Source of the DNA: a virus
Strand: one strand, 5' to 3'
Virus record (IMG/VR): IMGVR_UViG_3300005529_000005
Location: 1 to 64,000 of that record
DNA length: 64,000 nucleotides
Shown: piece after piece, positions 8,154 to 45,929 of the stretch
Numbering within the stretch: the first letter of the stretch is position 1
How the letters are laid out: each line of letters opens with the position of its first letter
Program-made: the position numbers and the translations under genes
Notes under the pieces: model-generated
What the model was told of the DNA's origin: nothing
What the model saw: only the letters and a program-made list of their open reading frames with translations
Database searches by the model: none

Positions 8154-9602
8154 ATGGCCGCCGACATTCCCGTCATCATGACCGCGGCCGGCGCTCAGCC
8201 GACCCCGCCGGCTACGCTTCTCGCCGACCTGATCCAGATCGTCCTCGCGACGAACTCGGGCTACACGGCGAACCTCCCGGGCTCGCTCGTGGAGGACGTT
8301 AGCTCGACCGAGGTCGCGGGCCTCGCGGTGGCGGACTCCGCGCGCGTCGAGACCATCAACTCGATCAGCCCGAACGGGGCGAACCTCTTCATCCTCTCGC
8401 AGCTCGGCCAGGTCTACATCGGCCCCGGCGCCGCGCCCGCGCCGCCGTCGAACACGTCGGTCGAGGTCACCTTCACGGCGCTCGACCCGAACACGTCGGC
8501 CCCGCTCTCGGGCTACGTCGTCACGATGGGCTTCGTGGTCTCCGACGGGACCTACCAGTACATCGCGCAGGACAACGGGGTGACCAACTCCAGCGGTCAG
8601 GTCACCGTCTTCTGCGTCTCGCCGACGACCGGCTCCTGGGCGGTCCCGACGAACTCCGTCACCACCATCGTGACCTCCGTCCCCTCGACCGTGTCGCTGA
8701 GCTGCGCGAACCCGACGCCGGGGACCTCCGGGGCGGCCGCGGAGACGGCGGAGCAGTACCTCGCCCGCGTCATGCAGGCGGGGCAGGCCGTCTCGACCGG
8801 GTCGACGACGCTCCTGAAGACGCTTCTTGGCCAGGTCTCCGGGGTGCAGCAACGCCTGATCTCGACGCGCCAGCAGACCGGGTCGTGGGAGATCATCGTC
8901 GGCGGCGGTGACCCGTACCAGGTCGCGGGCGCGATCTTCGAGTCCGGGCTCGACGTGTCGACCCTGGTCGGGTCGACGCTCCTCGTGACGAGCATCACCC
9001 AGGCGAACCCGGGGGTCGTCACGACCAACCTCAACCACGGCTACACGACCGGGCAGACCGCCCAGATGAACGGCATCGTCGGCATGACGCCGCTGAACGG
9101 CGTCAACGTGACGGTGACGGTCCTGACCGAGAAGACCTTCAGCATCGCGGTCAACACGTCGGGGATGCCCGCCTACGTCTCCGGCGGGATCGTGACGCCC
9201 AACCTCCGGAACCAGTCGATCAACATCTACGACGCGCCGGACGTGATCGTCGTGGTCTTCGTCCAGCCGCCGCAGCAGACCCTCACGATCGCGGCGACGT
9301 ACTCGACCACGGCCGCCAACTTCGCCTCCCAGGCGGCGGTAGCGCAGCTCGCCGCGCCGGCCATGGCCGCCTACGTCAACTCGATCACGGTCGGCGCCGC
9401 GCTGAGCCTCCTGATCCTCGAGGCCACGTTCCTCGCCGCCGTCTCCTCCGTCCTGCCGTCCTCGCAAATCTCCGCGCTCAACTTCGCGGTGTCGATCAAC
9501 GGCGTCCCGACCACGCCGTCCCTCGGCTCGTCGCTGATCCTCGGGGACCCGGAGAGCTACTTCTTCGCGACGACGGCCGGCATGGCCGTGTCGCAGGCCT
9601 GA
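8154..9602 (+). CDS. Baseplate J-like protein
   Basis: 482 aa, preceded by AGGAGGGG. Shows the J-family plan: N-terminal helix pair (SSTEVAGLAVADSARVETINSI), central beta region (VTFTALDPNTSAPLSG), the helical stretch ETAEQYLARVMQAGQ, and a C-terminal part ending ILGDPESYFFATTAGM. It contains an inserted beta module (about residues 280-350, NHGYTTGQTAQMNG) also seen in the 4360-4905 protein. Forms the baseplate wedge that links hub and fibres. Confidence 0.75.
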   Translation: MAADIPVIMTAAGAQPTPPATLLADLIQIVLATNSGYTANLPGSLVEDVSSTEVAGLAVADSARVETINSISPNGANLFILSQLGQVYIGPGAAPAPPSNTSVEVTFTALDPNTSAPLSGYVVTMGFVVSDGTYQYIAQDNGVTNSSGQVTVFCVSPTTGSWAVPTNSVTTIVTSVPSTVSLSCANPTPGTSGAAAETAEQYLARVMQAGQAVSTGSTTLLKTLLGQVSGVQQRLISTRQQTGSWEIIVGGGDPYQVAGAIFESGLDVSTLVGSTLLVTSITQANPGVVTTNLNHGYTTGQTAQMNGIVGMTPLNGVNVTVTVLTEKTFSIAVNTSGMPAYVSGGIVTPNLRNQSINIYDAPDVIVVVFVQPPQQTLTIAATYSTTAANFASQAAVAQLAAPAMAAYVNSITVGAALSLLILEATFLAAVSSVLPSSQISALNFAVSINGVPTTPSLGSSLILGDPESYFFATTAGMAVSQA

Positions 9603-9606
9603 CGCG

Positions 9607-10686
9607 ATGGCGCCCGCACCCGTCACGCTCCGCAGGGCCGCCGCGACCGTGATTCCGGTCGCCGGGCGCGCCGTCGTGGCGATGTGGGGTCCGCTGGTCG
9701 GCGGCTTCATCCAGAACCCCTACCTCGCGGCCGACCAGGGGATCGCGGAGGTCGAGACCCTATACGTCGACCTGAGCGGCAACCCGGCGGCGCTCCGCGA
9801 GACCGCGACGACGTTCGCGGTCCAGCCCGGCGAGACCTTCATCCTCGTCGGCAACCAGACGACGAGCGTCAGCGTCAATGCGGTGACGCAGGGCCACAAG
9901 TTCGCCGGGGTCGCGATCCAGCCGGCCACGCCGTTCCCGCCGAAGCCTCTTCCCGGGACGTTCCCGCCGAGCGGCCCGACGACGCTGATCGCCACGATCC
10001 CGTCCTATCTCTACCAGGAGTACAACGACGACTCGGACCTCGAGGCCTTCGTGGGGGCCTACAACGTGCTGGCGCAGGTCTACGCGGCCTGGTTCGCGAA
10101 CGTCCAGCTTCCCGTCTACACGAGCCCGACGATCACCGGCGCGCTCCTCGACTGGGTGGCGCAGGGCATCTACGGGATGGTGCGGCCGTCACTGGCGTCC
10201 GGGCTCGCCCACGTCGTCGGCCCGCTGAACACCTACGCCTTCAACACGCTGACGCTGAACCGCCGCAAGACCATCGGCCCGACGAACGTCACGGTGACCT
10301 CGGACGACGTCTTCAAGCGGATCATGACGTGGAACTTCTACAAGGGGGACGGGAACGTCTTCAGCATCCGGTGGCTGAAGCGGCGGGTCATGCGCTTCCT
10401 CACCGGCGCGAACGGGTCGGCCCCGAACATCGACAACACGCTAGCGATCAGCGTCTCCGTCGGCGCGGGGATCATCTCGATCAAGATCAACGCCGGAACG
10501 CGCACGGTCGTGGGCGGGTCTCTGCTCAACCGATTCGGCTTCAACAGCCGCGTCCCGCTGAACACGCTGACGACGCGCTTCGTGCCGAATTTGAATCAGT
10601 TTCCGCTGCAGAACGTGCTAAAGGAGGCCATCCAGGCGGGCGTCCTCCAGCTGCCGTTCCAGTACCAGTTCGTGGTCACCACCTGA
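9607..10686 (+). CDS. Tail protein gpI/DUF2612-like with N-terminal accessory domain
   Basis: 359 aa. Residues about 130-359 (EYNDDSDLEAFVGAYN, LPVYTSPTITGALLDWVAQGIYG) resemble DUF2612/gpI-type proteins that connect fibres to the baseplate and follow gpJ. Residues about 25-100 form a separate domain (GGFIQNPYLAADQGI ... GHKFAGV) that reappears as the stand-alone 103-aa protein at 12746-13057. The domain fusion looks like recent shuffling of fibre parts. Confidence 0.6.
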   Translation: MAPAPVTLRRAAATVIPVAGRAVVAMWGPLVGGFIQNPYLAADQGIAEVETLYVDLSGNPAALRETATTFAVQPGETFILVGNQTTSVSVNAVTQGHKFAGVAIQPATPFPPKPLPGTFPPSGPTTLIATIPSYLYQEYNDDSDLEAFVGAYNVLAQVYAAWFANVQLPVYTSPTITGALLDWVAQGIYGMVRPSLASGLAHVVGPLNTYAFNTLTLNRRKTIGPTNVTVTSDDVFKRIMTWNFYKGDGNVFSIRWLKRRVMRFLTGANGSAPNIDNTLAISVSVGAGIISIKINAGTRTVVGGSLLNRFGFNSRVPLNTLTTRFVPNLNQFPLQNVLKEAIQAGVLQLPFQYQFVVTT

Positions 10687-10699
10687 GGGGAGGCTGGGT

Positions 10700-11344
10700 T
10701 TGAGCAACGTCTTCGTCTTTGCGAACAATGCGTCGAGCGCGCTCGCCGCCCCGATCACGAACGTCGCGACCTCGGTCACCCTCTCCGCCGGCACGGGGGC
10801 GCTCTTCCCGAACCCGAGCGTCGGACCGCCACAGCAGCAGTTCGGGCTCACCTTCAACGACGCCGCGACCGGCCTCCTGACGGAGATTTGCTACTGCACG
10901 GCGCGGTCGGGCGACACGCTCACGATCGTCCGAGCGCAGGAGGGGACGGTCGCGCTCTCGTGGCTCGCCGGCGACCTCGCCGCGAACCTCGTCACCGCCG
11001 GCATGATGGCGGCGATGCAGCAGAGCGCGGCGCTCAACCCGACGCGCCAGGTCACGACCTCGGGCGCCTTCACGATGACGACCTCGGACGCGGGCGGGGC
11101 CGTCGGCTTGAACCGGGTCTCCGGCGTGTCGGCGAGCTCGACGACGCTCCCGACCGGGGCGACCGCCGGGCAGCTCTACGCGATCGAGGATCTCGCCAGG
11201 AACTTCCAGGCGGCGCCGGTGACGGTCAGCTACCCGGCCGGTCAGACGGGACCCAACGGCGCGACCGAGCAGGTCCTCAACGTCAACGGCCAATGCGCTT
11301 ACTTCCGCTACTACGGGAGCAACCAGTGGAGCTACAAGGCATGA
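10700..11344 (+). CDS. Tail fibre/appendage protein
   Basis: 214 aa, TTG start at 10700 chosen because GAGGGGAGG lies just upstream and no earlier in-frame start exists after the previous gene. Composition (Ala, Thr, Ser, Gly) and motifs such as NNASSALAAPITN and TSDAGGAVGLNR are usual for fibre shafts. Overlaps the next gene by ATGA. No signal peptide, unlike the following genes. Likely the fibre segment that attaches to the gpI-like protein. Confidence 0.55.
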   Translation: MSNVFVFANNASSALAAPITNVATSVTLSAGTGALFPNPSVGPPQQQFGLTFNDAATGLLTEICYCTARSGDTLTIVRAQEGTVALSWLAGDLAANLVTAGMMAAMQQSAALNPTRQVTTSGAFTMTTSDAGGAVGLNRVSGVSASSTTLPTGATAGQLYAIEDLARNFQAAPVTVSYPAGQTGPNGATEQVLNVNGQCAYFRYYGSNQWSYKA

Positions 11345-12741
11345 CGATCTTCCGCCGCGCCCTCGCGGGCCTCTTCGCGCTCTTCCTCGCCTGCGCTCCC
11401 GTCGCGGCGCAGTTCGCCGACCAGGCGACGTGGGTCGGCAACGGCGCGGGCTCCGCCAACGCGCAGACGATCACCGTCCAGAACGCGACGAACCTCGCCG
11501 ACCTCCTCGGCGTGAAGCTCGTCTACGTCCCGGCGGCGACGAACACCGGGCCGGCGACGATCAACATCAGCGGCAGCACCGGCTCCCCGTTCGGCGCGCA
11601 GAGCGTCCGCAAGCTGACGAACTCCGGGCTCCAGGCGCTCACCGGCTTCGAGCTGGTGAGCGGCCAGCCCGTCATGGTCATGTGGGACGGGACGTTCATC
11701 GACATCCTGTCGGCGGGAACGCCCGTCGTCACGATCGCGCCTCCTCAGGGCTACCTGACGCCGTGCCAGGTCTCGTCGGGCTCGCCGGTCTCGGGCTGCA
11801 CGGCCGGCCAAATCTACCAGACCGGGGACGTGGTCGCCGCGACGGCGCTCTACTACGAGCCGGCGGTCGGCAACCAGATTCCGATCTACAACGGGTCGGT
11901 CTTCGTCGAGCAGCCGTTCTCCGAGCTCACCCTCACGATCCCGTCGAGCCGTCTCGCGAACACGATCTACGACGTCTTCGTCACGACGACCTCCGCGGGC
12001 GCCTACAGCTCGACCGGCTCGCCGACCCTCTGCTTCGGCCCGGCGTGGACGACGTCGACCGCGGGCTCCGGCGCGCGCGGAACGGGCGCGGGTACCGCCC
12101 AGGTCGGTCAGACGAACGGCATCTGGACGAACACCGTCTCGATCAGCTGCGTCAACGGCGCCTCGACCTACACGGTCCCGGCGAACGGCGGGACCTACGT
12201 GGCCTCGACCTGGATGGACGGGACGGCGGGTCAATGCACGTCGCACCTGACCTACGGCCGGAGCCGGAAGCGGTGCTACTGGAACGCCTGGAACCAGCAG
12301 CCGATCTACCTGAAGGCGGGGGACACGACGGCGGGGACCTTCGTCGACTCGTCGACGACCTACCAGCCGATCAACAACAACACCGCCAACAGCCTGAGCA
12401 TACTGATCGGTCTGCCTGGTCAAGCGGTGAACCTCGAGCAGTATCTCTCGGCGCTATACAACTCGCTGCCGGTCAACTCGAACGCCTTCTTCTATCCCGG
12501 CATCGGCTACAACAGCACGTCGGCCGCGAGCGGCTACGCGGCGCCGGTCGACTACGTGATCCAGTCGTGCGCGGGGTGCTCGAACAACCTGCACTTCTCG
12601 ATGACGGCGAAGTACGTCACCGTCCCGGCGATCGGCGTCCAGACGATCACGTCTCTCGACCAGATCGGCTCGGGCTCGGGCAGCATGACGGTCACCGGCG
12701 GCGAGGCCGGCAACCTCCTGACCGCGGCCTGGGGGGGCTGA
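11341..12741 (+). CDS. Fibre-locus protein with Sec signal peptide
   Basis: 466 aa. Starts with a clear signal peptide (MTIFRRALAGLFALFLACAP, cleavage near AAQ-F). The rest is beta-rich, Thr/Ser/Asn/Gly-rich, with NTGPATINISGSTGSPFGAQ-type repeats usual in phage fibres and six or more Cys in the second half (CFGP, SISCVNG, QCTS, RKRCYW, SCAGCSN) that could form disulphides outside the cytoplasm. A signal peptide is not expected on a virion fibre; it may be an exported or membrane-attached protein. Confidence 0.6.
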   Translation: MTIFRRALAGLFALFLACAPVAAQFADQATWVGNGAGSANAQTITVQNATNLADLLGVKLVYVPAATNTGPATINISGSTGSPFGAQSVRKLTNSGLQALTGFELVSGQPVMVMWDGTFIDILSAGTPVVTIAPPQGYLTPCQVSSGSPVSGCTAGQIYQTGDVVAATALYYEPAVGNQIPIYNGSVFVEQPFSELTLTIPSSRLANTIYDVFVTTTSAGAYSSTGSPTLCFGPAWTTSTAGSGARGTGAGTAQVGQTNGIWTNTVSISCVNGASTYTVPANGGTYVASTWMDGTAGQCTSHLTYGRSRKRCYWNAWNQQPIYLKAGDTTAGTFVDSSTTYQPINNNTANSLSILIGLPGQAVNLEQYLSALYNSLPVNSNAFFYPGIGYNSTSAASGYAAPVDYVIQSCAGCSNNLHFSMTAKYVTVPAIGVQTITSLDQIGSGSGSMTVTGGEAGNLLTAAWGG

Positions 12742-12745
12742 CCTG

Positions 12746-13057
12746 ATGGGCGTCACCCCGGTCCCGACCCTCACCAGCCAGGTGACCACCGGCGGCACCG
12801 CCGTGGCCGTCGTCAGCGCGAACCCGAACGGCGGGATCATCCAGAACCCGATCGACGCGGCCGACCAGGCGATCGGCGGCGGCAACATCGAGCCGCTCTA
12901 CGTCGACCCGACCGGCGCGCCGGCGACGACGACCGGGAACGGGACGACCTTCCGGATCGAGCCCGGCCAAATCTGGAACGTCATCGCCGGTCAGACGACG
13001 TCGACGTCGATGAACGCTCCGACGAGCGGCCACAAGATCGCGGGGGTCCAATGGTGA
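12746..13057 (+). CDS. Small fibre-locus protein, paralogue of domain in 9607-10686
   Basis: 103 aa. Nearly the whole protein (GGIIQNPIDAADQAIGG, EPLYVDPTG, GTTFRIEPGQIW, GHKIAGVQW) aligns by eye with residues 25-100 of the gpI-like protein. Probably a beta-sandwich decoration or connector domain. Overlaps the next gene by 7 bases. No signal peptide. Function unknown. Confidence 0.6.
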   Translation: MGVTPVPTLTSQVTTGGTAVAVVSANPNGGIIQNPIDAADQAIGGGNIEPLYVDPTGAPATTTGNGTTFRIEPGQIWNVIAGQTTSTSMNAPTSGHKIAGVQW

Positions 13058-15351
13058 AGCGTCTCCTCGCGGCGGCGCTCGCCGCGCTCCTCCTCGCCGG
13101 CGCCGCCCTCGCTCAGCCGTCCGGCGGAGGGCCGGGCCCAGGCCCGGTCCCGTCGCCGTGGCAGGTGAACGGCGCGAAGGTCTACCTCCCGAGCCAGCAG
13201 TGCGTGGTGATGCCGCAGTCCGTCACGGGCGGCTGCGAGGGCAACAACACGATCAACGCGGCCGGCATCTACGTGAACGGCTCGCCGGTCCTGACCGTCG
13301 CGACCGGCGCGTCGATCACGATCAACACGTCGACCATCGTCGGCGGCGTGTCGGGTCGCGTGCTGTACGACAACTCCGCGACGGTCGGCGAGTATACCCA
13401 GGCGCAGCTCACCGCGCAGATCAACCTGGCGACGGCCTCGCTCTCCGGCGCGCTCCCCGCCTGGCCGAACAACACGACGACCTTCTTCCGGGGCGACGGC
13501 AGCTACCAGACCTTGAACTGCGCCGCGCTCACGAACGCGAGCGCCTTCTGCTCGGGCACGAGCGCGGCGAGCCTGACCGGGACGCTGAACGCGGCGCAGA
13601 TGCCGGCGCTCACCGGCGACGTGACGAGCTCGGTCGGGACGGTCGCGACGACGATCTCCGCGAACGCCGTCACCTACGCGAAGTTCCAGCAGGTCGCGGC
13701 CTCCTCCCTCGTCGGCAACCCGACGGTGAGCCTCGCCAACGCCCAGGGGATCACGCTCGGCGCCACGCTCTCGTTCTCGAGCTCGACGCTCCAGACGGGC
13801 GCGATCTCCGGAGACGTGACCTCCTCCGCGAACTCCTTCGCGACGACGGTGGCGAAGATCAACGGCGTCACGCTCGGGTCGACGACGGCGACGGCGGGCA
13901 ACGTGCTGATCGGCTCCGGGACGCAGTGGGTGACGCAGCCCTTCTCCGGCGCGGTCTCGCTGACCTCCGGGGGCGTGACGGCGCTCACGTCCTCCGCCTT
14001 CGCCAACCCGGCGAGCCCTGGCGTCAACCTGACGGGGACGAACGGCGTCGCGACGACCGCGCTCCGCTCGGACGTGGTCCTCGTCCTCGACCAGTCCATC
14101 GCCCCGAACTGGACCGGACAACACCAGTGGACCGTGGCGCGAACCGTGGCGTCGGCGTCGGGCGCGAACCTCGACGACGTCGTCGTCCAGGCGGCTACCT
14201 CCACGCTGACCGGCACGACGACCGTGACCAAGTTCAACAAGGTCACGGTCTACCGGCCGATCTTCACCGACGCCTCCGCCGGGACGGTGACGGACGCGGC
14301 GAGCCTCTACGTCGACAACTCCCCGAGCTGCACCGGCTCCCTGACCTGCACGAACCAGTGGGCGATCCGCGTCGGCGCCGGGAACGTCTCCTTCCCCGGC
14401 TCGGCGAACGTCCTCGGCACGATCACGTCCGGGACGTGGAACGGCTCCGTCGTCGACATGGCGCACGGCGGCTCGGGCGCGAACCTGACCGCGGTGAACG
14501 GCGGCCTGATCTACTCCAACGCCTCGACCATGGCGGTGCTGGCGGCCCCGGGGAGCGCAAGCCTGTGCCTGGTCTCCTCCTCCGCCACGGCGTTCGGCTG
14601 GGCCTCGTGCTCCGGCGGCGCGGCGGTCGCGTCGGTGTCGAACAGCGACGGCACGCTGACCATCAGCCCGACGACGGGCGCGGTGGTGGCCTCGATCGCG
14701 CTCGGCCACGCGAACACCTGGACGGCCGCGATCACCGACACGGTCGCTCCTCCGCAGATCATCCTCGGCGTGAACACGACGACCGGGGGCGCGATCAAGT
14801 TCTTCGGCGCGACGTCGGGCAACGTGACGCTCCAGCCGGCGGCCGCGGCGGGTACGAACACGACGCTGACGCTCCAGGGCGTCACCGACACCATAGCGGT
14901 GCTCGGGACGAACCAGACGTACAGCGCGACGCAGACCTTCTCCGGGACGCTGAACGTCTCCGGGACGTTCCAGTCCGGCGGCAACACGATGACGTTCCCG
15001 GGCTCCGCCGGAACCTTGGCGGCGCTCAACATCGCCGACCAGACCGTGACCGGCGGCGCGAACGTCACGACGCTCGCCCTCTCGACGGGCAACGTCACGA
15101 TCGACGCCGGCTCGCGGCCGATCCAGTCGATCACGAACGGAGGCGCCTTCACGATCACGGCGCCGGCGAACGACGGCTCCTGCATCCTGATCATCACGAA
15201 CAACGCGAGCGCCGGCGCGGTGACCTTCTCCGGCTTCACGGCCGGCTCGGCGACGGGCGCGACCCTCGACACCGTGAACACGCACAAGTTCTCGGTCTTC
15301 ATCTGGCGCGCGGGCGGTACGTCGGGCTATTCTATATACGCGCATCAGTAG
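13051..15351 (+). CDS. Large tail-fibre-like protein with Sec signal peptide
   Basis: 766 aa. N-terminus is a good signal peptide (MVKRLLAAALAALLLAGAAL, cleavage near LAQ-P). The body has repeated fibre motifs (LTGDVTSSVGTVATTISANA, ISGDVTSSANSFATTVAKIN, TLGSTTATAGNVLIGSGTQW) typical of alphaproteobacterial prophage fibres. The C-terminus (NDGSCILIITNNASAGAVTF ... HKFSVFIWRAGG) looks like a capping beta domain. Receptor binding is plausible, but the export signal is unexplained. Confidence 0.65.
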   Translation: MVKRLLAAALAALLLAGAALAQPSGGGPGPGPVPSPWQVNGAKVYLPSQQCVVMPQSVTGGCEGNNTINAAGIYVNGSPVLTVATGASITINTSTIVGGVSGRVLYDNSATVGEYTQAQLTAQINLATASLSGALPAWPNNTTTFFRGDGSYQTLNCAALTNASAFCSGTSAASLTGTLNAAQMPALTGDVTSSVGTVATTISANAVTYAKFQQVAASSLVGNPTVSLANAQGITLGATLSFSSSTLQTGAISGDVTSSANSFATTVAKINGVTLGSTTATAGNVLIGSGTQWVTQPFSGAVSLTSGGVTALTSSAFANPASPGVNLTGTNGVATTALRSDVVLVLDQSIAPNWTGQHQWTVARTVASASGANLDDVVVQAATSTLTGTTTVTKFNKVTVYRPIFTDASAGTVTDAASLYVDNSPSCTGSLTCTNQWAIRVGAGNVSFPGSANVLGTITSGTWNGSVVDMAHGGSGANLTAVNGGLIYSNASTMAVLAAPGSASLCLVSSSATAFGWASCSGGAAVASVSNSDGTLTISPTTGAVVASIALGHANTWTAAITDTVAPPQIILGVNTTTGGAIKFFGATSGNVTLQPAAAAGTNTTLTLQGVTDTIAVLGTNQTYSATQTFSGTLNVSGTFQSGGNTMTFPGSAGTLAALNIADQTVTGGANVTTLALSTGNVTIDAGSRPIQSITNGGAFTITAPANDGSCILIITNNASAGAVTFSGFTAGSATGATLDTVNTHKFSVFIWRAGGTSGYSIYAHQ

Positions 15352-15381
15352 AGTGCGCTCCTCCCGACCCGGAGACCTCCC

Positions 15382-16227
15382 ATGAGAGAGAAGATCAGCG
15401 GGGCCGCGATGTGGCTCTGCAGCCTCACGCTCGCCGGCGTGCTCGCGCTGGGGATGTTCGCGCCGCGCTCGCACGCGGCTAATCCGCCGATCGACGCGGA
15501 GACCTTGCGACTGTTCGCCGGTCAGCAGCGTTGCGCGCAGATCGGCCCGCTCCCGTGCGTAGCGCCGCTCCCGCCGCCGGCCGGACCGCAGACCGTGACG
15601 TTCAACGAGAACGTCGACACGACCTCCTGCGGCACGAGCTGTAGCTTCACCAGCGAGGCGATCAGCGCGACTTGCCCTAATCGGGTGGTTGTCGGGGCGC
15701 TCTCAGGCGTGAACACGGGTAGCACGAGCAATCAGTCCGTCTCGGGGACTATTGCCGGCGTGACGCTGACGCAGGCCGTCGCGCAGACCAACAACAACGG
15801 TACGAACGGCTACTGGTCCGCTGTCGTCTACGCGGCCGTGCCGAGCGGAACGACGGCGACTTTCGCGCTCACCTTATCCGTCTCTACGATCCGCGTCGGG
15901 CTAGGCGTCTATACGCTCTGCAATCTCAACTCCACGACGGCGAAGAACACGGTAGGGGCGAACAACTCTGGTACTACGGTGACGCTGAATGTGAACACCG
16001 CGGTCGGAGACGTGGCAGTCGGGTCAGGACACAATGACGCTGGAAGCACCTCGACTTGGTCCGGCGCTACGAAGGACTTCGACGACAACGTCGGAGCTAC
16101 CGGCTCCATCACGACGGGGGCGCACTTCGCCGAGACGGCAGCGCAGACCCCGCGGGCGGTGAGCACGACGTGGGGGTCATGCTCTGGCGGCAACTTCTGC
16201 TCTGGCGCGCTCGCGACGTGGCACTGA
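15382..16227 (+). CDS. Exported fibre-locus protein, unknown function
   Basis: 281 aa with signal peptide (MREKISGAAMWLCSLTLAGV ... SHA-A). The mature part is beta-rich with many Thr, Ser and Asn; Cys pairs (QRCAQ, LPCVA, TSCGTSCSF, GSCSGGNFCSG). Base composition is less GC-biased than its neighbours (for example 15640-16060), suggesting recent acquisition. Could be an exported adhesin-like or fibre tip protein. Confidence 0.55.
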   Translation: MREKISGAAMWLCSLTLAGVLALGMFAPRSHAANPPIDAETLRLFAGQQRCAQIGPLPCVAPLPPPAGPQTVTFNENVDTTSCGTSCSFTSEAISATCPNRVVVGALSGVNTGSTSNQSVSGTIAGVTLTQAVAQTNNNGTNGYWSAVVYAAVPSGTTATFALTLSVSTIRVGLGVYTLCNLNSTTAKNTVGANNSGTTVTLNVNTAVGDVAVGSGHNDAGSTSTWSGATKDFDDNVGATGSITTGAHFAETAAQTPRAVSTTWGSCSGGNFCSGALATWH

Positions 16228-16229
16228 CC

Positions 16230-17360
16230 ATGCGCGCCCTCATCGCTCTTTGCGCGTGGCTCCTCGCCGCAGGCGTCGCGCTCGCGCAGCAGACCATCCC
16301 GGCGCTCTCCCCGGTCGGCTCCCAGAACACGAGCGTCGTCACCTATCAGGCCGGCGCCAACTGGGTGCCGTCCGCCTACGCGATCACCGGCTTCTGCTCG
16401 ACGTGCTCCAACGGCTCAGGCGGAACGACCGCTACGAAGTCGTGGCAGTTTCAGGCGCTCGTCGGAACGACGTGGCAGACGCTCGACACCCAGACGAACG
16501 TCTCGTTCACCAGCAACCAGAAGCTCACCTTCCCGCTCACGGGCGCGCCGGCGGGATCGCAGTGGCGTCTCGTCATCACGAGCAACAACGACCCGCTGAT
16601 CAACGTGGTCGAGCTCGACGTGATCGGCTCCCCCTCGGTAGCCGTCCCTCCTCCGCGACCGCCCGTGACCTTCTCCTACGGATGGACGAGCCCGGGCTCG
16701 CTTCCGACCAACGACGCGATCCAGGGGTCGTGCGGGTCGCTCGCGTGCTGGACGTTCCAGGTGGCGACCTGGGCGCAGATGCAGTCGTCGCTCCTCGCGG
16801 GAGGATCGTACGACCTGTGGGTCGGGGACTCGATCACGGCGCTGTGCGACGTGAACCAGGCCTCTCCCTTCGGCGTGAACATGGCCATCCCGGGCAACAC
16901 GGTGAACGGCCTGATCAACGAGCTCGCTCAGATCAACAGCGGGTTCGGCGGTCAGACGGCGGGAACGTCGCTGCCCGTGGTCCACGCCCTCATCATCAAC
17001 ATCGGCGTGAACGATATCGGAACGCTCGGCAGCGACGCCGCGACGATCGAGGGGAAGCTCCAGGCCCTCTTCAACTCGTGGAGCGGACCGCTGATCTGGA
17101 CGGGAATCTGGCCTACGCCGTCGAACACCGGATGGAAGACCGAGATCGACCAGGTCAACGCCTGGGCCTCGTCGTTCCTGGCGACCCGCGCGCACACGCA
17201 CGACGTCACCGCTCAGATGAACGCCGCGCTGTCGTCGGGCGGGTTCATGATCCCGAGCTACGAGCTGGTGGTCGGCGGCACCGCCGGCATCCACTACAAC
17301 GGCTCCGGATGCACGGCCGCCATGGCGGTGACCGCCGCGTCCCTTCAGCAGCCGTTCTGA
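16230..17360 (+). CDS. Exported SGNH/GDSL hydrolase-like protein
   Basis: 376 aa. Signal peptide MRALIALCAWLLAAGVALAQ. Residues about 25-145 form a beta domain that ends VVELDVIGSP (discoidin-like edge). The catalytic part carries GDSI with Ser201, a glycine block (AIPGNTVNG), GVND with Asn261 and a terminal His355 (GIHYNG). The Asp usually three residues before that His is absent (Ala). SGNH enzymes de-acetylate polysaccharides; in this locus it may trim capsule or LPS. ATG at 16230 is two bases after the previous stop. Confidence 0.65.
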   Translation: MRALIALCAWLLAAGVALAQQTIPALSPVGSQNTSVVTYQAGANWVPSAYAITGFCSTCSNGSGGTTATKSWQFQALVGTTWQTLDTQTNVSFTSNQKLTFPLTGAPAGSQWRLVITSNNDPLINVVELDVIGSPSVAVPPPRPPVTFSYGWTSPGSLPTNDAIQGSCGSLACWTFQVATWAQMQSSLLAGGSYDLWVGDSITALCDVNQASPFGVNMAIPGNTVNGLINELAQINSGFGGQTAGTSLPVVHALIINIGVNDIGTLGSDAATIEGKLQALFNSWSGPLIWTGIWPTPSNTGWKTEIDQVNAWASSFLATRAHTHDVTAQMNAALSSGGFMIPSYELVVGGTAGIHYNGSGCTAAMAVTAASLQQPF

Positions 17361-17405
17361 GCGCCCTCTTGTAGCGCACAGCCTCCCCGTGCGATGATCC
17401 CCTCC

Positions 17406-17431
17406 TCCCTCCCCCTTTTGCGGGGGAGGGA
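17406..17431. repeat. Perfect 10-bp inverted repeat, hairpin loop TTTTGC
   Basis: TCCCTCCCCC (17406-17415) and GGGGGAGGGA (17422-17431) pair perfectly around a 6-base loop. No T-tract follows, so a factor-independent terminator is unlikely on either strand. This sequence type resembles dispersed palindromes I know from rhizobial chromosomes. It separates the fibre genes from the lysis region. Confidence 0.7.
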
Positions 17432-17453
17432 GATCGCAACAGGGAGCCTTTCC

Positions 17454-17870
17454 ATGAAGTCCGTCCTCGTCGCGGCCGCGCTCGCGGTCGCCCTCGTCAC
17501 ACCCGCCCTCGCCGTCGACTTCTCCGCGCCCGTCACGAAGGAGGACGGCGAGCCCTACATGGAGTGCCTGAAGCCGGACCCGGCGAACGCGAACAACTGC
17601 CTCGCGCCGACGGTACCGATGACGCTCGGCCACATGGTGGCGAACGCGCTGAACGTCCCGGCGCCCGGCCTGAAGAACGACGTCATCGTCGCTCGAGGCC
17701 TCCTCGCGATGAAGATCCGGGAGGCGAGGAGCGTGGACCTCACCGCGCAGGAGCGCGACCTGATCAAGGCGTGCCTGTTCGAGTCGGTCGAGCGCCTGAG
17801 CTACCGCCCGGTCGCGGTCGTCCAGGCGCTCCGCGCGATCGACCCCGCCTCGCTCGAATCGGCCAAGTGA
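17454..17870 (+). CDS. Small exported protein, unknown function
   Basis: 138 aa. ATG at 17454 follows AACAGGGAG. Signal peptide MKSVLVAAALAVALVTPALA; mature protein of about 118 aa with two Cys (YMECLKPD, NNCLAP) and a third (KACLF). Helical C-terminal half (ERDLIKACLFESVERLSYRP). Located directly before the endolysin, so a periplasmic role in lysis or in blocking superinfection is possible but not shown. Confidence 0.6.
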   Translation: MKSVLVAAALAVALVTPALAVDFSAPVTKEDGEPYMECLKPDPANANNCLAPTVPMTLGHMVANALNVPAPGLKNDVIVARGLLAMKIREARSVDLTAQERDLIKACLFESVERLSYRPVAVVQALRAIDPASLESAK

Positions 17871-17882
17871 GGAGGCGCGCCC

Positions 17883-18665
17883 ATGTCGTCCCTCCGCTCC
17901 CTCGTCGACGCGCACGGCGTCATCGCCGAGGGTCAGGGCTCGCCGGGTAACCCCGACGCGGCCGTCCTCGCCGCGCAGCTCGCGCTCTCCCAGGCCGGCT
18001 ACCGCGTCGAGCAGGACGGCGTCTTCGGCGCCGGGACGCTCTCCGCCGTCGAGCGGCTCCAGCGTCAGCACGCGCTGACGGTCGACGGGAAGATCGGGGA
18101 CGCGACCGCCGACCTCCTCGACCAGCCGCACGGTGCGCTCGTCGCGGTCGCTCTGCCGATCACGGTCGACGTCCCGGTCGGCGCGGCGACGGTCACCTTC
18201 CCGCACGACGACACGGCGTCGCTGCTGGCCTTCTACGGCAGGCCGTGGGCGGACTCCTCCCTCCTCGTCCCGGTCACGCTGCCGTTCCGGCTGACGTACG
18301 AGGGCAAGCCGTTCGGCGAGAAGGTGAGCTTCCACCGGAAGGCGGCGGACCGCCTGGCGGCGGCCTTCGCGGCGGTGTGGGACAAGTACGGCCACGACCT
18401 GGCCGCGCTCGACGCGACGGGCGTCACGCGCTTCTCGGGGACCTACAACTATCGTCCGATCCGCGGCTCCTCGCGGCTCTCCTGCCACGCCTTCGGCGCC
18501 GCCATCGACCTGGACGCGGAGGTTCTCCCTCTCGGCAAGCCGAACCCGGAGCACGGCGGGATGCCGCTCGACGTCGCCGCGTGCTTCAAGGCTCAGGGGT
18601 TCTTCTGGGGCAACGACTACCTCGGCCGGAAGGACCCGATGCACTTCCAGTCCGCGCACGAGTGA
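17883..18665 (+). CDS. Endolysin: peptidoglycan-binding domain plus M15 peptidase
   Basis: 260 aa. Residues about 25-80 are a PG_binding_1 domain (LALSQAGYRVEQDGVFGAGT, LTVDGKIGDATADLL). The C-terminal half is an M15-type (VanY/L-alanyl-D-glutamate peptidase-like) zinc peptidase: SCHAFGAAIDLD with His202 and Asp209, and MHF with His254 as the third ligand. It cuts peptide stems of peptidoglycan at lysis. No signal peptide, so it needs the holin. Confidence 0.85.
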   Translation: MSSLRSLVDAHGVIAEGQGSPGNPDAAVLAAQLALSQAGYRVEQDGVFGAGTLSAVERLQRQHALTVDGKIGDATADLLDQPHGALVAVALPITVDVPVGAATVTFPHDDTASLLAFYGRPWADSSLLVPVTLPFRLTYEGKPFGEKVSFHRKAADRLAAAFAAVWDKYGHDLAALDATGVTRFSGTYNYRPIRGSSRLSCHAFGAAIDLDAEVLPLGKPNPEHGGMPLDVAACFKAQGFFWGNDYLGRKDPMHFQSAHE

Positions 18666-18672
18666 CCTCGTC

Positions 18673-19566
18673 ATGATGCACCTTTTCCCCTCGCTCGCGC
18701 CCGACTACGCCGCCTGGATCGACCACGCCCAGGTCCGCCCCGAGGTCGAGGGCGAGCTGGACGAGGTCTGCAGGAAGGCGCTGATCCCGGGCCTCCCGAA
18801 GCTGAAGGCGGGCTGCGACGAGCTCGGCGTTCCCCTCGTGTGGGCGGCGGCGAGCTTCTACCGGGAGGCCGGCTACGACTTCCGCGACTCGCCCGCGCAG
18901 GGCGACCGGTGGGACGCGCGCTCGATCCACGTCCCGGCCGGCCTCGGGCCGTACCGGAGCTTCACCGACGCTCAGGTCGCCGCCTACAGGATCGACGGCA
19001 TCGAGAAGTACGCCGGTCAGTGGACCCTCGAGCTTGCGCTCTTCCTGTGGGAGCTTTTCAACGGCTTCGGCTACCGCGACCGCTGGCGCATCCGCTCCCC
19101 CTACGACGTCGCCGGGACGACGATCCAGCAGAAGGGGAAGTACATCGCGGACGGGCAGTTCTCCTACGGCGTGATGGACCAGCAGCTCGGGTGCCTCGCG
19201 ATGTACCTCGGGATGGTCGCGCTCGACGCCTCGCTGGCGCTCCCGCGTCAGGCCGGGGTCGCGACGGTCGCCGCGCCGGCGCCGCAGCCTTCGCCGTCGC
19301 CGATCCACGTCGTGCGCGATGTCGCGTGGACGCAGGCCGCGCTCGACAAGGTGATGACCGACGACGCGGCCTTCCTCGCGCTGGTCAAGCGGTCGGGGAT
19401 CGACGTGCTGCGGGTCGACGGCGACCTCGGCAAGAAGACGCGCACGGCGGTTCGCGCCTTCGAGCAGTATCGCGGGCTCGAGGTCGACGCGGGACTGCCC
19501 GGGTCTCAGGTCGTCGGCGAACTCGACAAGATCCTCGGCGACGGATGGACGCCGCCGAGCGCGTGA
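18673..19566 (+). CDS. Lysozyme-like muralytic enzyme with C-terminal PG-binding domain
   Basis: 297 aa. Residues about 40-185 resemble a phage glycosidase family with the plan YREAGYDF, HVPAG, LFLWELFNGFGYRD, SPYDVAGTTIQQKGKYIADG. Glu in FYREAG is the candidate catalytic acid. After a Pro/Ala linker (residues about 190-212), VDGDLGKKTRTAVRAFEQYR is a second peptidoglycan-binding fold. Having this and an M15 peptidase side by side gives two different wall cuts. Two ATG codons stand at 18673 and 18676. Confidence 0.65.
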   Translation: MMHLFPSLAPDYAAWIDHAQVRPEVEGELDEVCRKALIPGLPKLKAGCDELGVPLVWAAASFYREAGYDFRDSPAQGDRWDARSIHVPAGLGPYRSFTDAQVAAYRIDGIEKYAGQWTLELALFLWELFNGFGYRDRWRIRSPYDVAGTTIQQKGKYIADGQFSYGVMDQQLGCLAMYLGMVALDASLALPRQAGVATVAAPAPQPSPSPIHVVRDVAWTQAALDKVMTDDAAFLALVKRSGIDVLRVDGDLGKKTRTAVRAFEQYRGLEVDAGLPGSQVVGELDKILGDGWTPPSA

Positions 19567-19598
19567 GCCGGAAGGCTCGAAACAGGGGAGAGGGAAGC

Positions 19599-20162
19599 AT
19601 GAGGGCTCTTCGGAAGGTCGCCATCGTCGCGGGGCTCGCGCTCGTCGCGGCGGCCAGCGTCGCGATCGCGCAGACGGCGGGGACCGGCGCGGCCGCGCCC
19701 GGACCCGCGCCGGCGGCGGTGGTCGACACCGGCACCTACGCCGGCCAGGCGCTCACCTGGGTCGTCACGACGTTCGGCGGGACGGTCGGCGCCGCGCTGA
19801 CGGCGCTCCTCCTGCGCTACCTGAAGAACGCGGGCATCCAGGGCGCGGATCTCCTGCGCAGCCGCCTCCAGGAGATCATCGTCAACGGGCTGAACATGGC
19901 CGCCGCCGACGCCGCGAAGCGGCTGGAGGGGCGCGGGAAGGTCGAGATAAAGAACGAGGCGGTCGGCCAGGCGGTGCGCTACGCTCAGGTCCACGGCGCC
20001 GACATCCTGAAGCAGCTCGGCCAGGACCCGATGGCGCAGACGACCGTCGACGCGATCAAGGCGCGGATCGAGACGGTGATCGTCGACCCCGCCACGCCGA
20101 CGAACCCCTCGCTCGCCGCCGCGCCCGCGCCGAAGCCTGACCAGCAGGCGTCGAAGGGTTGA
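19599..20162 (+). CDS. LLH-family holin-like protein with signal-like N-terminus
   Basis: 187 aa. ATG at 19599. Hydrophobic signal/TM1 (VAIVAGLALVAAASVAIAQ), then a second hydrophobic stretch (LTWVVTTFGGTVGAALTALL), then a cytoplasm-like helical region with AVGQAVRYAQVHGADILKQL that matches the phage holin LLH pattern. Pro/Ala-rich C-terminal tail. Directly downstream of two lytic enzymes. It would permeabilise the inner membrane; the Ala-Gln site could also make it a cleaved exported protein. Confidence 0.55.
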   Translation: MRALRKVAIVAGLALVAAASVAIAQTAGTGAAAPGPAPAAVVDTGTYAGQALTWVVTTFGGTVGAALTALLLRYLKNAGIQGADLLRSRLQEIIVNGLNMAAADAAKRLEGRGKVEIKNEAVGQAVRYAQVHGADILKQLGQDPMAQTTVDAIKARIETVIVDPATPTNPSLAAAPAPKPDQQASKG

Positions 20163-20167
20163 CCACG

Positions 20168-20869
20168 ATGCCGCTGACGCACCGCGCCCTCGCGCTCCTG
20201 GTGGCGGCCCTCTACGGAGAGGCGGGCGCGCCGCCGGTGACGTGGCTCTACCGCGCCCCGGACGACGCGCCCGTCATGTTCGCCGTCGTCAGGATCGGTC
20301 GCTATCTGATCGTGGTGACGCGCGGCTCCCGGACCTTCATGGACTGGGTCCACGACGCGATCGCGCTGGCGCGCTCGCCGCTCGACCACCCGGAGTTCGG
20401 GCTCGTGCACGTCGGCTTCTACGACGGGATCACGGTCGCCTGGGAGATCCTGGCGCCGATGATCGGTCCGGACGACGTCGTGATCTTCCTGGGCCACTCC
20501 CTCGGCTCCCCGCACGCGGAGTTCCTGGCGGCGCACATGCTGACCCAGATGAAGCGCGTACCGTTCGTCGGGCGGTGGGCGCCGCCGAAGCCGGGCTTCC
20601 AGAAGTTCGCCGACATCCTCGCGCCGGCGCCCGGCTTCGCGTACGACAACTACGACGTGATCGGCTTCGACCCCGTCGTCGAGCTCGCCTGGACGACGCG
20701 GGACTTCCCCTACGTGCACACGAGCCCGCTGACCCAGGTGACCCGGGCGCCCTCCCAGAACATCCTCCTCGACCTCGGTCCGCAGTTCGCGTGGCACCAC
20801 TTCGAGAACTACCTCGCGGCCACGCCCGAGACCCCGGTCGTTTTTCTCGGGAGTGTTGCCGGCGGGTGA
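20168..20869 (+). CDS. Lipase/esterase, alpha/beta-hydrolase (class 3 type)
   Basis: 233 aa, ATG at 20168 with AAGGG 9 bases upstream preferred over a TTG at 20159. GHSLGSPHAEF contains the nucleophile elbow with Ser111; VVTRGSRTFMDWVHD and HVGFYDG are the strands before it as in class 3 lipases; catalytic acid/His candidates are Asp in NYDVIGFDP and His in WHHFENY. No signal peptide. In a lysis cassette it may attack the outer membrane or lipids, similar in idea to LysB, but this is inference. Confidence 0.65.
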   Translation: MPLTHRALALLVAALYGEAGAPPVTWLYRAPDDAPVMFAVVRIGRYLIVVTRGSRTFMDWVHDAIALARSPLDHPEFGLVHVGFYDGITVAWEILAPMIGPDDVVIFLGHSLGSPHAEFLAAHMLTQMKRVPFVGRWAPPKPGFQKFADILAPAPGFAYDNYDVIGFDPVVELAWTTRDFPYVHTSPLTQVTRAPSQNILLDLGPQFAWHHFENYLAATPETPVVFLGSVAGG

Positions 20870-20952
20870 CGGTCCAGCGCGCTCCCCGGTGATAGCCTCC
20901 GGTTGCCCCGGCCTTGGTCGGGGGGAATCAACCCAACACGAGGAGAACGCTT

Positions 20953-21678
20953 ATGATCAGGAAGACCCTCACGGTCGCGATCGCGGCCACCCTCTTCGCC
21001 GGCGCCGCCGGCGCCGCCGACCTTCCGCTGAAGTCCCCGGGCCTCGCGAACGTGCTCGCCCCGTACACGGGCTCCGGCCTCTACGTCGGCTTCAACGCCG
21101 GCGGTGGCGGCGGGAGCGCGAGCGCGGCGAACGCGAACGTCGTCTCGCTCCAGGGCTTGGTCGGCGTGACCATCGGCTACGCATGGTCGCTCCCCAGCGC
21201 CCAGTCCTTCGTCGCGGTCGAGGCCGACTTCGACCTGATGAACCTCAACACCGGCGCGAACGCCGGCGTGACGCTCAACGGCCCGGCCGACTTCGAGCAG
21301 CGCATCATCTTCGGCTTCCCGCTCCAGACGGCCGCGCAGTTCTTGCCCTTCCTCGGCAACCTTCTCAGCAACACCACGCTGCCGCCGTTCGCCGCGCTCC
21401 CGGCCGGGGTGACCGCCGGCAACTCGCACATGTACATCTTCGGCGGGATCGACGAGAAGGACGTTTCCGTCAACTTCGGGCTGGCGTCGAACAAGGCCTG
21501 GCTGATCGCGCCCACGTTCGGCTTCGGCAACCGCGTCCAGCTCTCGAACGGCTTCGCGATGGACTCCTCGATCGAGGCGCAGTTCGACTCGAAGGGTCAG
21601 TGCGTCGGCGCTACGGTCGGCCTGATGTGCGGCAACATCGGAACGAACTACGTCGCGAAGATCAAGTTCCTGTACTGA
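20953..21678 (+). CDS. Outer-membrane beta-barrel protein (rhizobial Omp25/31 type)
   Basis: 241 aa. ATG at 20953 with GAGGAG upstream. Signal peptide MIRKTLTVAIAATLFAGAAG with cleavage before ADLPLKSPG, the mature start typical of Rhizobiales outer-membrane barrels. Alternating hydrophobic strands (GLYVGFNAGGGGG, VGVTIGYAWSL, SFVAVEADFDL) and a terminal aromatic (KIKFLY) as BAM signal. It has its own 5' region and a strong terminator behind it: a moron. May mask or change the phage receptor. Confidence 0.8.
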   Translation: MIRKTLTVAIAATLFAGAAGAADLPLKSPGLANVLAPYTGSGLYVGFNAGGGGGSASAANANVVSLQGLVGVTIGYAWSLPSAQSFVAVEADFDLMNLNTGANAGVTLNGPADFEQRIIFGFPLQTAAQFLPFLGNLLSNTTLPPFAALPAGVTAGNSHMYIFGGIDEKDVSVNFGLASNKAWLIAPTFGFGNRVQLSNGFAMDSSIEAQFDSKGQCVGATVGLMCGNIGTNYVAKIKFLY

Positions 21679-40894: not shown

Positions 40895-41656
40895 ATGAGA
40901 GTAGCCGACCACGTCCTGAAGGTTTTGAGCGCCAGCGCCTTCGACGGCGACAAGCTCGTCCTGCCGCCCCGCCAGCTGGACCGCGACGTCTATCTAGAGG
41001 TCGCCAAGGTGATCGAGGCCGCCGGCGGCAAGTGGAATCGGAAGGCGAAGGCCCACGTCTTCGACGGCTCCGCCGAGGACGCGATCGAGCCGGTCATGCT
41101 GACGGGAGAGGTCACCAGGGTTCAGCAGGAGTTCGGGTTCTTCGAGAGCACGGCCGCCGTGGTCGCGCGGATCATGGCGCTCGCCCACCGGATCGAGCCG
41201 GGCATGCGCATCCTGGAGCCGTCGGCCGGCCGCGGCGCGATCGCGGTCCCGTTGATGAAGGCGGGGGCGGAGGTCCACACGTGGGAGATCCTGCCGAAGA
41301 ACGCGGAGACGCTGCGCGCGGCGGGCCTGAGGCACGTCCACGTCGGAGACTTCCTCGCGAGCGACCCAGTCCCCGGGTTCTACCACCAGGTCTTGATGAA
41401 CCCGCCGTTCGGCCGGCGCGCCGACGTCGACCACGTCCTCCACGCGGCGCGCAGTCTCAGGAGCGGCGGGACGCTGGTGTCCGTCATGTCGGCCGGCGTG
41501 ACGTTTCGCCAGGACCGGAAGACGCTGTCCTTCCACGATCAGGTCAGGCGCATGTCGCTCGGCGTCCACGTCGAGCCGCTGCCGCCGCTGTCCTTCCGGG
41601 AGTCCGGGACCGACGTGAACGCCGTCCTGATCGCCTTCACGCTGGTGGCGCAGTGA
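40895..41656 (+). CDS. N6-adenine-type DNA methyltransferase (gamma-like)
   Basis: 253 aa, ATG at 40895 after CAACAGGGAGAAGACC. N-terminal GGKWNRKAKAHVF is the DUF4942-type strand found in such enzymes. Motif I ILEPSAGRGAIAVPLM, acidic motif II VHTWEI, motif IV MNPPFGRR (NPPF). Probably N6-adenine methylation. Overlaps the following C5 enzyme start by GTGA. Confidence 0.75.
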   Translation: MRVADHVLKVLSASAFDGDKLVLPPRQLDRDVYLEVAKVIEAAGGKWNRKAKAHVFDGSAEDAIEPVMLTGEVTRVQQEFGFFESTAAVVARIMALAHRIEPGMRILEPSAGRGAIAVPLMKAGAEVHTWEILPKNAETLRAAGLRHVHVGDFLASDPVPGFYHQVLMNPPFGRRADVDHVLHAARSLRSGGTLVSVMSAGVTFRQDRKTLSFHDQVRRMSLGVHVEPLPPLSFRESGTDVNAVLIAFTLVAQ

Positions 41657-43914: not shown

Positions 43915-44117
43915 GCAGACGCTATGCCGTGGTTTTTCCCGACGGCTCGATGTCCGTGATGGCTGAGCCCAAGACCGGTCACGAAGCCGCCTCCTATCGC
44001 GGAATGGCGAAGGAGGAGCGTGACGGCTGGAATGAACGGGAGCGTAAATCGAAGTCGAAGAGCTTCGCCAAGCTGGCGACGGTTGAGGTCTCCGACGTGA
44101 AGGAGCTAAGACGATGA
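43911..44117 (+). CDS. Small unknown protein between methyltransferases
   Basis: 68 aa, ATGA overlap at both ends. RRYAVVFPDGSMSVMAEPKT looks like a small beta unit, followed by a charged helix (KEERDGWNERERKSKSKSF). May be a partner or regulator of the methyltransferases; no direct evidence. Confidence 0.45.
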   Translation: MSRRYAVVFPDGSMSVMAEPKTGHEAASYRGMAKEERDGWNERERKSKSKSFAKLATVEVSDVKELRR

Positions 44118-44929
44118 CTCGCGAGACCGCCCCGAGGTTCTCGGGGATCGGCGGCCACCACAGCCACAAGGCGGGGACCGTCGAGTGGATCACCCCGCCG
44201 GACGTCATAGCGGCGCTCGGGCCCTTCGACCTCGACCCGTGCTCCTCGCTAGCCCAGCCGTGGCCGACCGCGGCGCGCGCCTTCACCCGGACCGACAACG
44301 GCCTGACGCGCGCGTGGGAGGGGCGGGTCTGGCTGAACCCTCCCTACGCGAACGGCGTGATCGAGAAGTGGCTCGCGCGCATGGCGGAGCACGACCGAGG
44401 GACGGCGCTGATCTTCGCGCGGACGGAGACCGACGCCTTCTTCAGGTTCGTGTGGGAGCGCGCGACGGCGCTCCTCTTCATGCGCGGCCGGATCAACTTC
44501 CACTTCGGGGAGCCGTGGCTCGACCAGAAAACCGGTGTCCACTATCAGGTCGGCGATCGCGCCCCCGGGAACGCCGGCGCGCCGACCGTGCTGTGCGCCT
44601 ACGGGGTCGACGACGCGGACGTGCTGGCGGCCTGCCGGATCGACGGCCGCTTCGTCCCGCTCCGCCTCCCGCGCTCAGTGGTCGTGTCGATTTTCTCGAC
44701 CTCAAACGAGGAGGCAAAAAGTGTCGTCACCTGGCGGGAGGCCCTCGCCGGCTTCTTCGCCGAGCGCGAGGGGCCGGTCGTCCTCGAGGACCTCTACCGC
44801 GCCTTCGCGACGCACCCGAAGGCGGCGACGAACCGGAACGTCCAGGCGAAGCTGCGCCAGCAGCTCCAGGAGGGACCCTACCGCCGGGTCGGTCCTGGTC
44901 TTTGGGAGGCGGCTGAACAGGGAGCGTGA
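44114..44929 (+). CDS. Phage N6-adenine methyltransferase (Dam-like, PF05869 type)
   Basis: 271 aa. EWITPPDVIAALGPFDLDPC, then RVWLNPPYANGVIEKWL with catalytic NPPY, then TALIFARTETDAFF and LLFMRGRINF: the standard order for phage Dam-like enzymes. Extra C-terminal domain of about 75 residues (WREALAGFFAEREGPVVLED, LYRAFATHPKAATNRNVQAK) looks like a winged helix and is not usual for the family. Confidence 0.85.
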   Translation: MTRETAPRFSGIGGHHSHKAGTVEWITPPDVIAALGPFDLDPCSSLAQPWPTAARAFTRTDNGLTRAWEGRVWLNPPYANGVIEKWLARMAEHDRGTALIFARTETDAFFRFVWERATALLFMRGRINFHFGEPWLDQKTGVHYQVGDRAPGNAGAPTVLCAYGVDDADVLAACRIDGRFVPLRLPRSVVVSIFSTSNEEAKSVVTWREALAGFFAEREGPVVLEDLYRAFATHPKAATNRNVQAKLRQQLQEGPYRRVGPGLWEAAEQGA

Positions 44930-44931
44930 CC

Positions 44932-45129
44932 ATGGCATGCGACGCAGCGATCCGGCACGTCAGGCGGGTGCTGGACGAGAGGTTCCTGAGCATGAACGCC
45001 AGCGACGTCTACGCCGAGGTCAGGTGGTGGACCCCGGACACGATCGTCGAGGCGCTCGACTCGCTCGTCGCCGCGCGGGCCGCGATCAAGGTCGAGGACC
45101 GCTACCACGTCCTGGGACCGCTCCGGTGA
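44932..45129 (+). CDS. Small winged-helix-like protein
   Basis: 65 aa. ATG at 44932 with GGGAG 8 bases upstream is preferred to GTG at 44926. HVRRVLDERFLSMNASDVYA, VEALDSLVAARAAIKVEDRY have the look of a compact winged helix. GTGA overlap with the next gene. Confidence 0.5.
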   Translation: MACDAAIRHVRRVLDERFLSMNASDVYAEVRWWTPDTIVEALDSLVAARAAIKVEDRYHVLGPLR

Positions 45130-45329
45130 GCGCGGCGCGGGGCGACGAGGTCGTCTACCTCTCCCTGACGGGGGAGACGTGGGACGCCGTGGTCGCGGCG
45201 GTCGGTCCCGAGGACCGCGTCACCCTCCTCGTCGGGAGCTTCGAGCTCGAACTGAGCCGCGTTCCCCTTGACGACACCCGCACTCTTCCTGGATCGTGGT
45301 CCCCGCTCGGACAGGGAGAGGGCGATTGA
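45126..45329 (+). CDS. Small unknown protein
   Basis: 67 aa, GTG at 45126. GDEVVYLSLTGETWDAVVAA and RVTLLVGSFELELSRVPLDD: small beta-rich fold. Overlaps both neighbours by 4 bases. Confidence 0.45.
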   Translation: MSAARGDEVVYLSLTGETWDAVVAAVGPEDRVTLLVGSFELELSRVPLDDTRTLPGSWSPLGQGEGD

Positions 45330-45928: not shown

Positions 45929-45929
45929 T

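Follow-up and report, generated by a model that had tools for sequence, protein, structure and literature searches.

Predicted signal peptides in a tail-fibre locus

The stretch analysed here, referred to as the window, covers positions 1 to 64,000 of IMG/VR virus record IMGVR_UViG_3300005529_000005, which is 74,093 bp long and belongs to a soil-type phage. The record is probably a complete genome, since its ends carry a 90-bp direct terminal repeat; the guanine-plus-cytosine content of the window is 69%. We focused on genes A to G of the tail module (Table 1), five of which (B, D, E, F and G) are predicted to encode proteins exported by the Sec pathway; their signals, and that of the protein at 20953, are of the signal-peptidase-I type. 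The module runs from the baseplate J gene through a DUF2612-type tail protein to the fibre genes, the same order as in Klebsiella phage Chronis and Shewanella phage QDWS. Host range is set by the tail fibres, and on the textbook view these are built in the cytoplasm, with no export expected.

Table 1. Genes and signal peptides of the fibre locus and of the signal-bearing block downstream of it
Feature	Position	Strand	Basis or remark
Baseplate J-like protein	8154..9602	+	gene at the homologous position carries a baseplate J annotation in Klebsiella phage Chronis and Shewanella phage QDWS
Tail protein, C-terminal part DUF2612-type, no signal peptide	9607..10686	+	tblastn to myophages, one match annotated DUF2612
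A: short conserved tail-fibre protein, no signal peptide, candidate virion socket	10700..11344	+	phrog_8469/30299 tail fiber
B: exported fibre, 8 cysteines	11341..12741	+	predicted Sec export
B Sec signal peptide	11341..11409	+	score 10.23, cut after residue 23
C: 103-amino-acid protein without signal, candidate second socket, overlaps D	12746..13057	+	homologues at same place
D: exported protein with fibre repeats (DUF5907-like), 9 cysteines	13051..15351	+	predicted Sec export
D Sec signal peptide	13051..13113	+	score 10.98; cleavage between ALA and Q read from sequence
E: exported cysteine-rich protein, 8 cysteines	15382..16227	+	predicted export
E signal peptide, weakest of four	15382..15477	+	score 8.97, cut 32
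F: exported GDSL/SGNH hydrolase-like protein, phage-tail-like N-domain, 6 cysteines	16230..17360	+	predicted Sec export
F Sec signal peptide	16230..16286	+	score 10.63, cut 19
G: small exported protein, 3 cysteines	17454..17870	+	signal score 10.69
Membrane/holin-like protein rather than secreted	19599..20162	+	signal-like N-terminus, then second hydrophobic segment
Exported, outer-membrane-protein-like	20953..21678	+	signal score 10.44

Signals were called with a purpose-written scorer (not SignalP) and our own gene caller, which gave about 96 genes in the window; the controls, known E. coli signals, scored 8.6-11.4. Among 1628 proteins from the window and the related loci the scorer made 117 hits as compared with 8.6 when the N-termini were shuffled, and at internal methionines it matched in 9 of 5054 cases. 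The related loci are labelled with L-numbers (L002, L126 and so on). They were reached with the baseplate J-like protein as anchor (37 IMG/VR relatives), with an alignment of the binding region of B (75 viral loci fetched), with a second alignment run against genome contigs (7 loci) and, for L126-L129, via fibre A.

The initial annotation had described four signal-peptide reading frames at 11341, 13051, 15382 and 16230, and our scoring bore them out. The reading frames of B, D, E and F open with ATG, and each protein has an n-h-c signal peptide with an AxA-type cleavage site: MTIFRRALAGLFALFLACAPVAA, cut before QF, in B (11341); MVKRLLAAALAALLLAGAALA, cut before QP, in D (13051); MREKISGAAMWLCSLTLAGVLALGMFAPRSHA, cut before AN, in E (15382); and MRALIALCAWLLAAGVALA, cut before QQ, in F (16230). 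For D, the cut chosen by the scorer lies 3 residues before the ALA/Q site. Strong signals among the window genes are found only within 11341-21678, in one 11-gene block, and the chance of seven signal proteins falling in one such block is about 2e-6. The same annotation had counted seven signal-peptide proteins, and these are the seven strong matches of the scorer, although the one at 19599 is probably a membrane protein rather than a secreted one, judging from its second long hydrophobic segment. The borderline match of the lipase at 20168 (score 8.91) is probably a false positive, and the match at 49310 (score 8.81), under the cut-off, was rejected as one.

B consists of a mature N-domain (residues 24-125) and a TNF/C1q-like lectin or receptor-binding region (residues ~134-466). 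It resembles the tail spike Pam5 gp18 (33.7% over 56% of the query, E 8e-16), and its model is all-beta (predicted local distance difference test score, pLDDT, 83; predicted template modelling score, pTM, 0.72). In the fold search, the long matches that head the list superpose poorly. Good matches are at the level of domains: a cyanophage short-tail-fibre domain, C1q and TNF-like lectins (target TM up to 0.64, probability 1.0). According to the model, the C-terminal end of B is a TNF/C1q-like lectin and a putative sugar binder. B has the homology, the place after the baseplate genes in the tail operon and, in parts of its model, the tip fold of a tail fibre or spike; the lack of a secretion signal, usual in tail fibres, is not found in B, D, E, F or G. 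On reading the sequences, no lipobox cysteine, as expected of superinfection-exclusion lipoproteins such as Llp and Cor, follows the signal in D, E, F and G, and B was rejected as a lipoprotein because its FLAC motif is off the lipobox consensus and is not present in homologues.

The other proteins are more varied. C shares 52% identity over 73 amino acids with the N-terminal domain of the 9607 tail protein (9607-9930), of which it is a stand-alone copy between two exported genes, kept in L113, L126, L127 and L129. The fibre repeats of D match DUF5907 with a score just below the cut-off. F matches PF13472 (E 1.2e-5, 26.3 bits; gathering cut-off 32.9) and phrog_17517 tail; by sequence reading, the SGNH blocks GDSI, PGN, GVND and the histidine are present, and the aspartate of DxxH is apparently replaced (AGIH). 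G is 36% identical to the signal-bearing L002:12762. No family was recognised for E in profile searches and its structure prediction is poor (pLDDT 39), and searches for relatives of F in viral contigs, and of F and G in cultured phages, found none. The initial annotation had likened the bodies of the four proteins to tail fibres, which holds for B and D; F is a hydrolase-like protein with a phage-tail-like domain, and E is unassigned.

Conservation of the signals and the cysteine trace of export

The arrangement was searched for in related phage loci, as had been suggested from the start, and L126, L127 and L129 have the order tail protein-A-B-C-D, in which B and D bear signals and A and C do not. 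The letters of the B and D signals differ between the window and these three loci, yet the signals persist. A is 67-71% identical in L126-L129, and C is 52-57% identical at the same place in L113, L126, L127 and L129. The N-domain of B has 36-50 identities over 90-96 aligned residues, and its C-terminal region barely aligns, so that host-range-like divergence sits in the exported proteins. After removal of near-copies, the binding-region family has 20 signal-bearing and 45 signal-less members, and on its tree the signal label is clustered, with 7 changes, at least 5 of them forced; in the clade of the window B the signal is kept in 13/13 members at ~40% identity. These comparisons argue that the signals of B and D are selected and that export is real.

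Genes A and B share an ATGA overlap, and upstream of B its frame stays open for 218 codons in the window, which would fit one frameshift product whose "signal" is an internal hydrophobic stretch. We regard this as extremely improbable, because the frame of B is closed 7 (L002) and 18 (L127) codons upstream of its ATG, which excludes the fusion in those two loci, the two genes are separated in L119, and B-type genes occur without any A in other phages.

In bacteria, proteins that are exported tend to have an even number of cysteines (PMC7678975), and the signal-bearing proteins compared here follow this preference. With one vote per homology cluster, 52 signal-bearing clusters have even numbers, 11 odd numbers and 6 no cysteine, versus 169, 233 and 244 of the others (Fisher P 1.3e-9). 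The cysteine content is 1.32% with a signal and 0.66% without, and in one fibre N-domain the same two cysteines are present in 10/10 signal-bearing copies and the pair is missing in 4/4 signal-less ones. In the window, the preference is seen in B, E and F. The tree offered too few pairs for an independent-pairs test of signal and cysteine parity.

A further trace comes from SASA-type esterases encoded after the fibre. Fibre and esterase both bear signals in L024 and L031 and neither does in Rivra, L023, L032, L040 and L042, a concordance of 7/7 (P 0.048), with the esterases of the last four loci recognised by motif only. Tat-like (RR) signals on the L031 esterase (L031:10865-11746) and at L015:14377-15615 suggest export of folded proteins. 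Given the conserved signals, the even-cysteine signature, the concordant esterase signals and the same arrangement in relatives, we conclude that B, D, E, F and G are very probably sent through Sec to the periplasm. It could be supposed instead that the signals are ornamental or work poorly, and that the proteins fold too fast, remain cytoplasmic and enter virions uncleaved, in keeping with the usual cytoplasmic assembly of virion fibres. This is very unlikely, since signal function persists while the letters diverge, and the cysteine signature, the Tat-like signals and the concordance with the adjoining esterase all speak against it.

A tail of this type does not by itself entail signals. The baseplate query matched 0/392 genomes in the family of Bradyrhizobium sp. 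dw_78 and 2/385 in its class, and an order-level search from one class match found alphaproteobacterial relatives with the same tail order, a long A and signal-less fibre genes. Signal enrichment downstream versus upstream of baseplate J, counted by clusters, reached only P 0.052.

Virion part or free protein

The gene directly after a short, tip-less A (at most 214 amino acids) bears a signal in 8 cases, versus 0 of ~24 with a long A; the corresponding P of 7e-6 overstates the difference, as the loci are related genomes, in which near-copies were merged by eye. In the part of the contigs read, the signal-bearing spike of L014 and L044 is the sole fibre-like gene before the lysis genes or the operon end. 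The 18 records in which a copy of the binding domain is exported all lack a second, non-exported one, and the one second copy found, in L025, is also signal-bearing. Together with the esterase concordance, these results favour a shared extracytoplasmic site of action, and the short-A coupling, the lone spikes and the missing second copy favour a virion role with late mounting.

We tentatively prefer periplasmic maturation followed by mounting on A or C at lysis. B and D, with the esterase-like F and the small G, would be secreted and cleaved late in infection and would fold oxidatively in the periplasm, while tails with the signal-less stubs A and C would be built in the cytoplasm. Once the holin, the endolysin and rupture of the envelope have joined the two compartments, the fibres from the periplasm would mount on A and C and complete the receptor-binding apparatus, so that the adsorption apparatus would be finished at lysis and not in the cytoplasm. 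It is conceivable, and proposed here with some reserve, that some tailed phages complete their virions outside the cytoplasm, Sec-secreted and periplasmically disulfide-bonded fibres being plugged onto sockets on fibre-less particles only at lysis.

Several observations weigh against late mounting of exported fibres. The alphaproteobacterial relatives do with a long A and signal-less fibre genes, which shows that this tail type can dispense with export, and the short A of L112 and of L118/L122/L123 has no signal-bearing gene after it; moreover, the short-A and long-A loci are not independent. The cysteine counts of D (9) and G (3) are odd, so the even-cysteine rule is statistical only. Bcep781 (gp31), L091 (long A), Pam5 (gp18) and L003 combine exported fibre-locus proteins with an ordinary signal-less fibre. 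Dilution opposes mounting after lysis, and binding of B or D by A or C is suggested by gene order only.

In a close rival explanation, which we consider somewhat less probable, the exported fibre-like proteins are never on virions; they would occupy the receptor from within the periplasm, at the surface of the infected cell or free in the lysate, and block superinfection or adsorption to debris. It shares the well-supported export and has precedents beside tail genes, as in the window: the gene for T5 Llp adjoins that for the receptor-binding protein, and Llp blocks FhuA on the periplasmic side (PMC9586334), whereas Lom of lambda, whose gene lies among those of the tail, is exported to the outer membrane (PMC12309495). 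Neither of the two is a fibre or receptor-binding protein, unlike B; Lom is a beta-barrel and Llp a small lipoprotein. An outer-membrane-protein-like exported gene near B-G and the exported plus conventional fibres of Bcep781 also agree with free blockers. Against them, the signal-bearing proteins retain ordinary virion-proximal fibre domains, and free receptor binders would hinder the phage's own progeny as well. The initial annotation had proposed exported proteins that may coat or modify the surface of the infected cell or act as decoys against superinfection; the export part is well supported, and the coat and decoy roles are hypothetical. Such roles are less favoured because L014 and L044 show nothing else spike-like in the late operon, a further copy of this binding domain that is not exported is absent from every phage checked, and short signal-less stubs lie directly upstream, all of which fits the phage's own receptor-binding fibres.

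It is unlikely that the exported proteins are carbohydrate-active or adhesive proteins which, independently of the virion, remodel the host envelope or exopolysaccharide (capsule, O-antigen or biofilm loosening before lysis). Such a role would suit the SGNH-like F, the SASA esterases that adjoin in relatives, the exported pectate-lyase-like protein of L056 and the lectin module that, with a signal, adjoins very large, apparently secreted repeat proteins in genomes of Bosea and Rhodospirillales, but it leaves the fibre architecture and the tight coupling to gene A unexplained, and F may be without its catalytic aspartate. The bacterial lectin modules with signals (L083:7135-8223 and L085:8634-10915; Rhodospirillales, Bosea) are in tandem in Bosea and look non-phage.

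Comparison with cultured phages and implications

A signal on a possible tail fibre is already noted in the annotation of Burkholderia phage Bcep781 gp49 (NC_004333.2), "possible tail fiber; possible signal peptide domain". Like B, gp49 has a fibre-like body, a strong Sec signal (11.28) and an even number of cysteines (14); its spike-like body belongs to another family, and no homology to B was found. It was reached via the QDWS protein with 12% of the query aligned, and Bcep781 also carries gp31, a signal-less possible fibre. Shewanella phage vB_Sb_QDWS (OK094664.1), a cultured phage, encodes an exported 687-amino-acid protein with 8 cysteines in the order baseplate J, tail protein, short tail fibre and signal-bearing fibre, as in the window, although its body is tail-spike-like, unlike the TNF-like lectin of B. 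The deposited start of this gene (L156:9807-11870) lies downstream of the signal, and an antisense reading frame is annotated over its 5' part. The receptor-binding region of B recurs at 28-34% identity in Pam5 gp18 and Agrobacterium phage Rivra gp20, which have no signal peptide, unlike B. The TNF-like lectins BC2L-C and PLTL, C1q and the short-tail-fibre domain of cyanophage A-1(L) share the model fold of B, yet only 9-16% identity. Our literature search found no study of exported tail fibres and none explaining such proteins.

Further signal-bearing proteins were seen in other fibre loci. L003:15155-19921 holds a run of them downstream of a signal-less fibre, two small proteins directly after the Pam5 tail spike (gp19 and gp20, L004:8906-9711) have apparent signal peptides, and in the cultured Klebsiella phage Chronis a signal-bearing, cysteine-rich protein (gp22, L155:8734-9426) lies between tail protein and fibre. 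Elsewhere in the window, the outer-membrane-protein-like gene at 20953-21678 has signal-bearing homologues in L006, L007 and L010 and is placed among late genes like lambda Lom, and 41653-47597 holds two C5-cytosine DNA methyltransferase-like genes and a third of another kind. No integrase or resolvase was found in a search of the window's own record, which makes lysogenic conversion less likely.

Fibre assembly confined to the cytoplasm is the textbook expectation, and it appears to be challenged by these sequence data. If one class of fibres is routed via the periplasm, this would be a step of phage assembly that nobody looks for, and virion maturation would be coupled to lysis. Annotation may then lose the signal, as in QDWS, and recombinant fibres produced cytoplasmically could misfold, their disulfides missing. 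If the proteins stay at the surface, the phage would be blocking receptors in a new way, with a binding domain of its own type. In both cases cultured phages offer a direct test of a long-held assumption.

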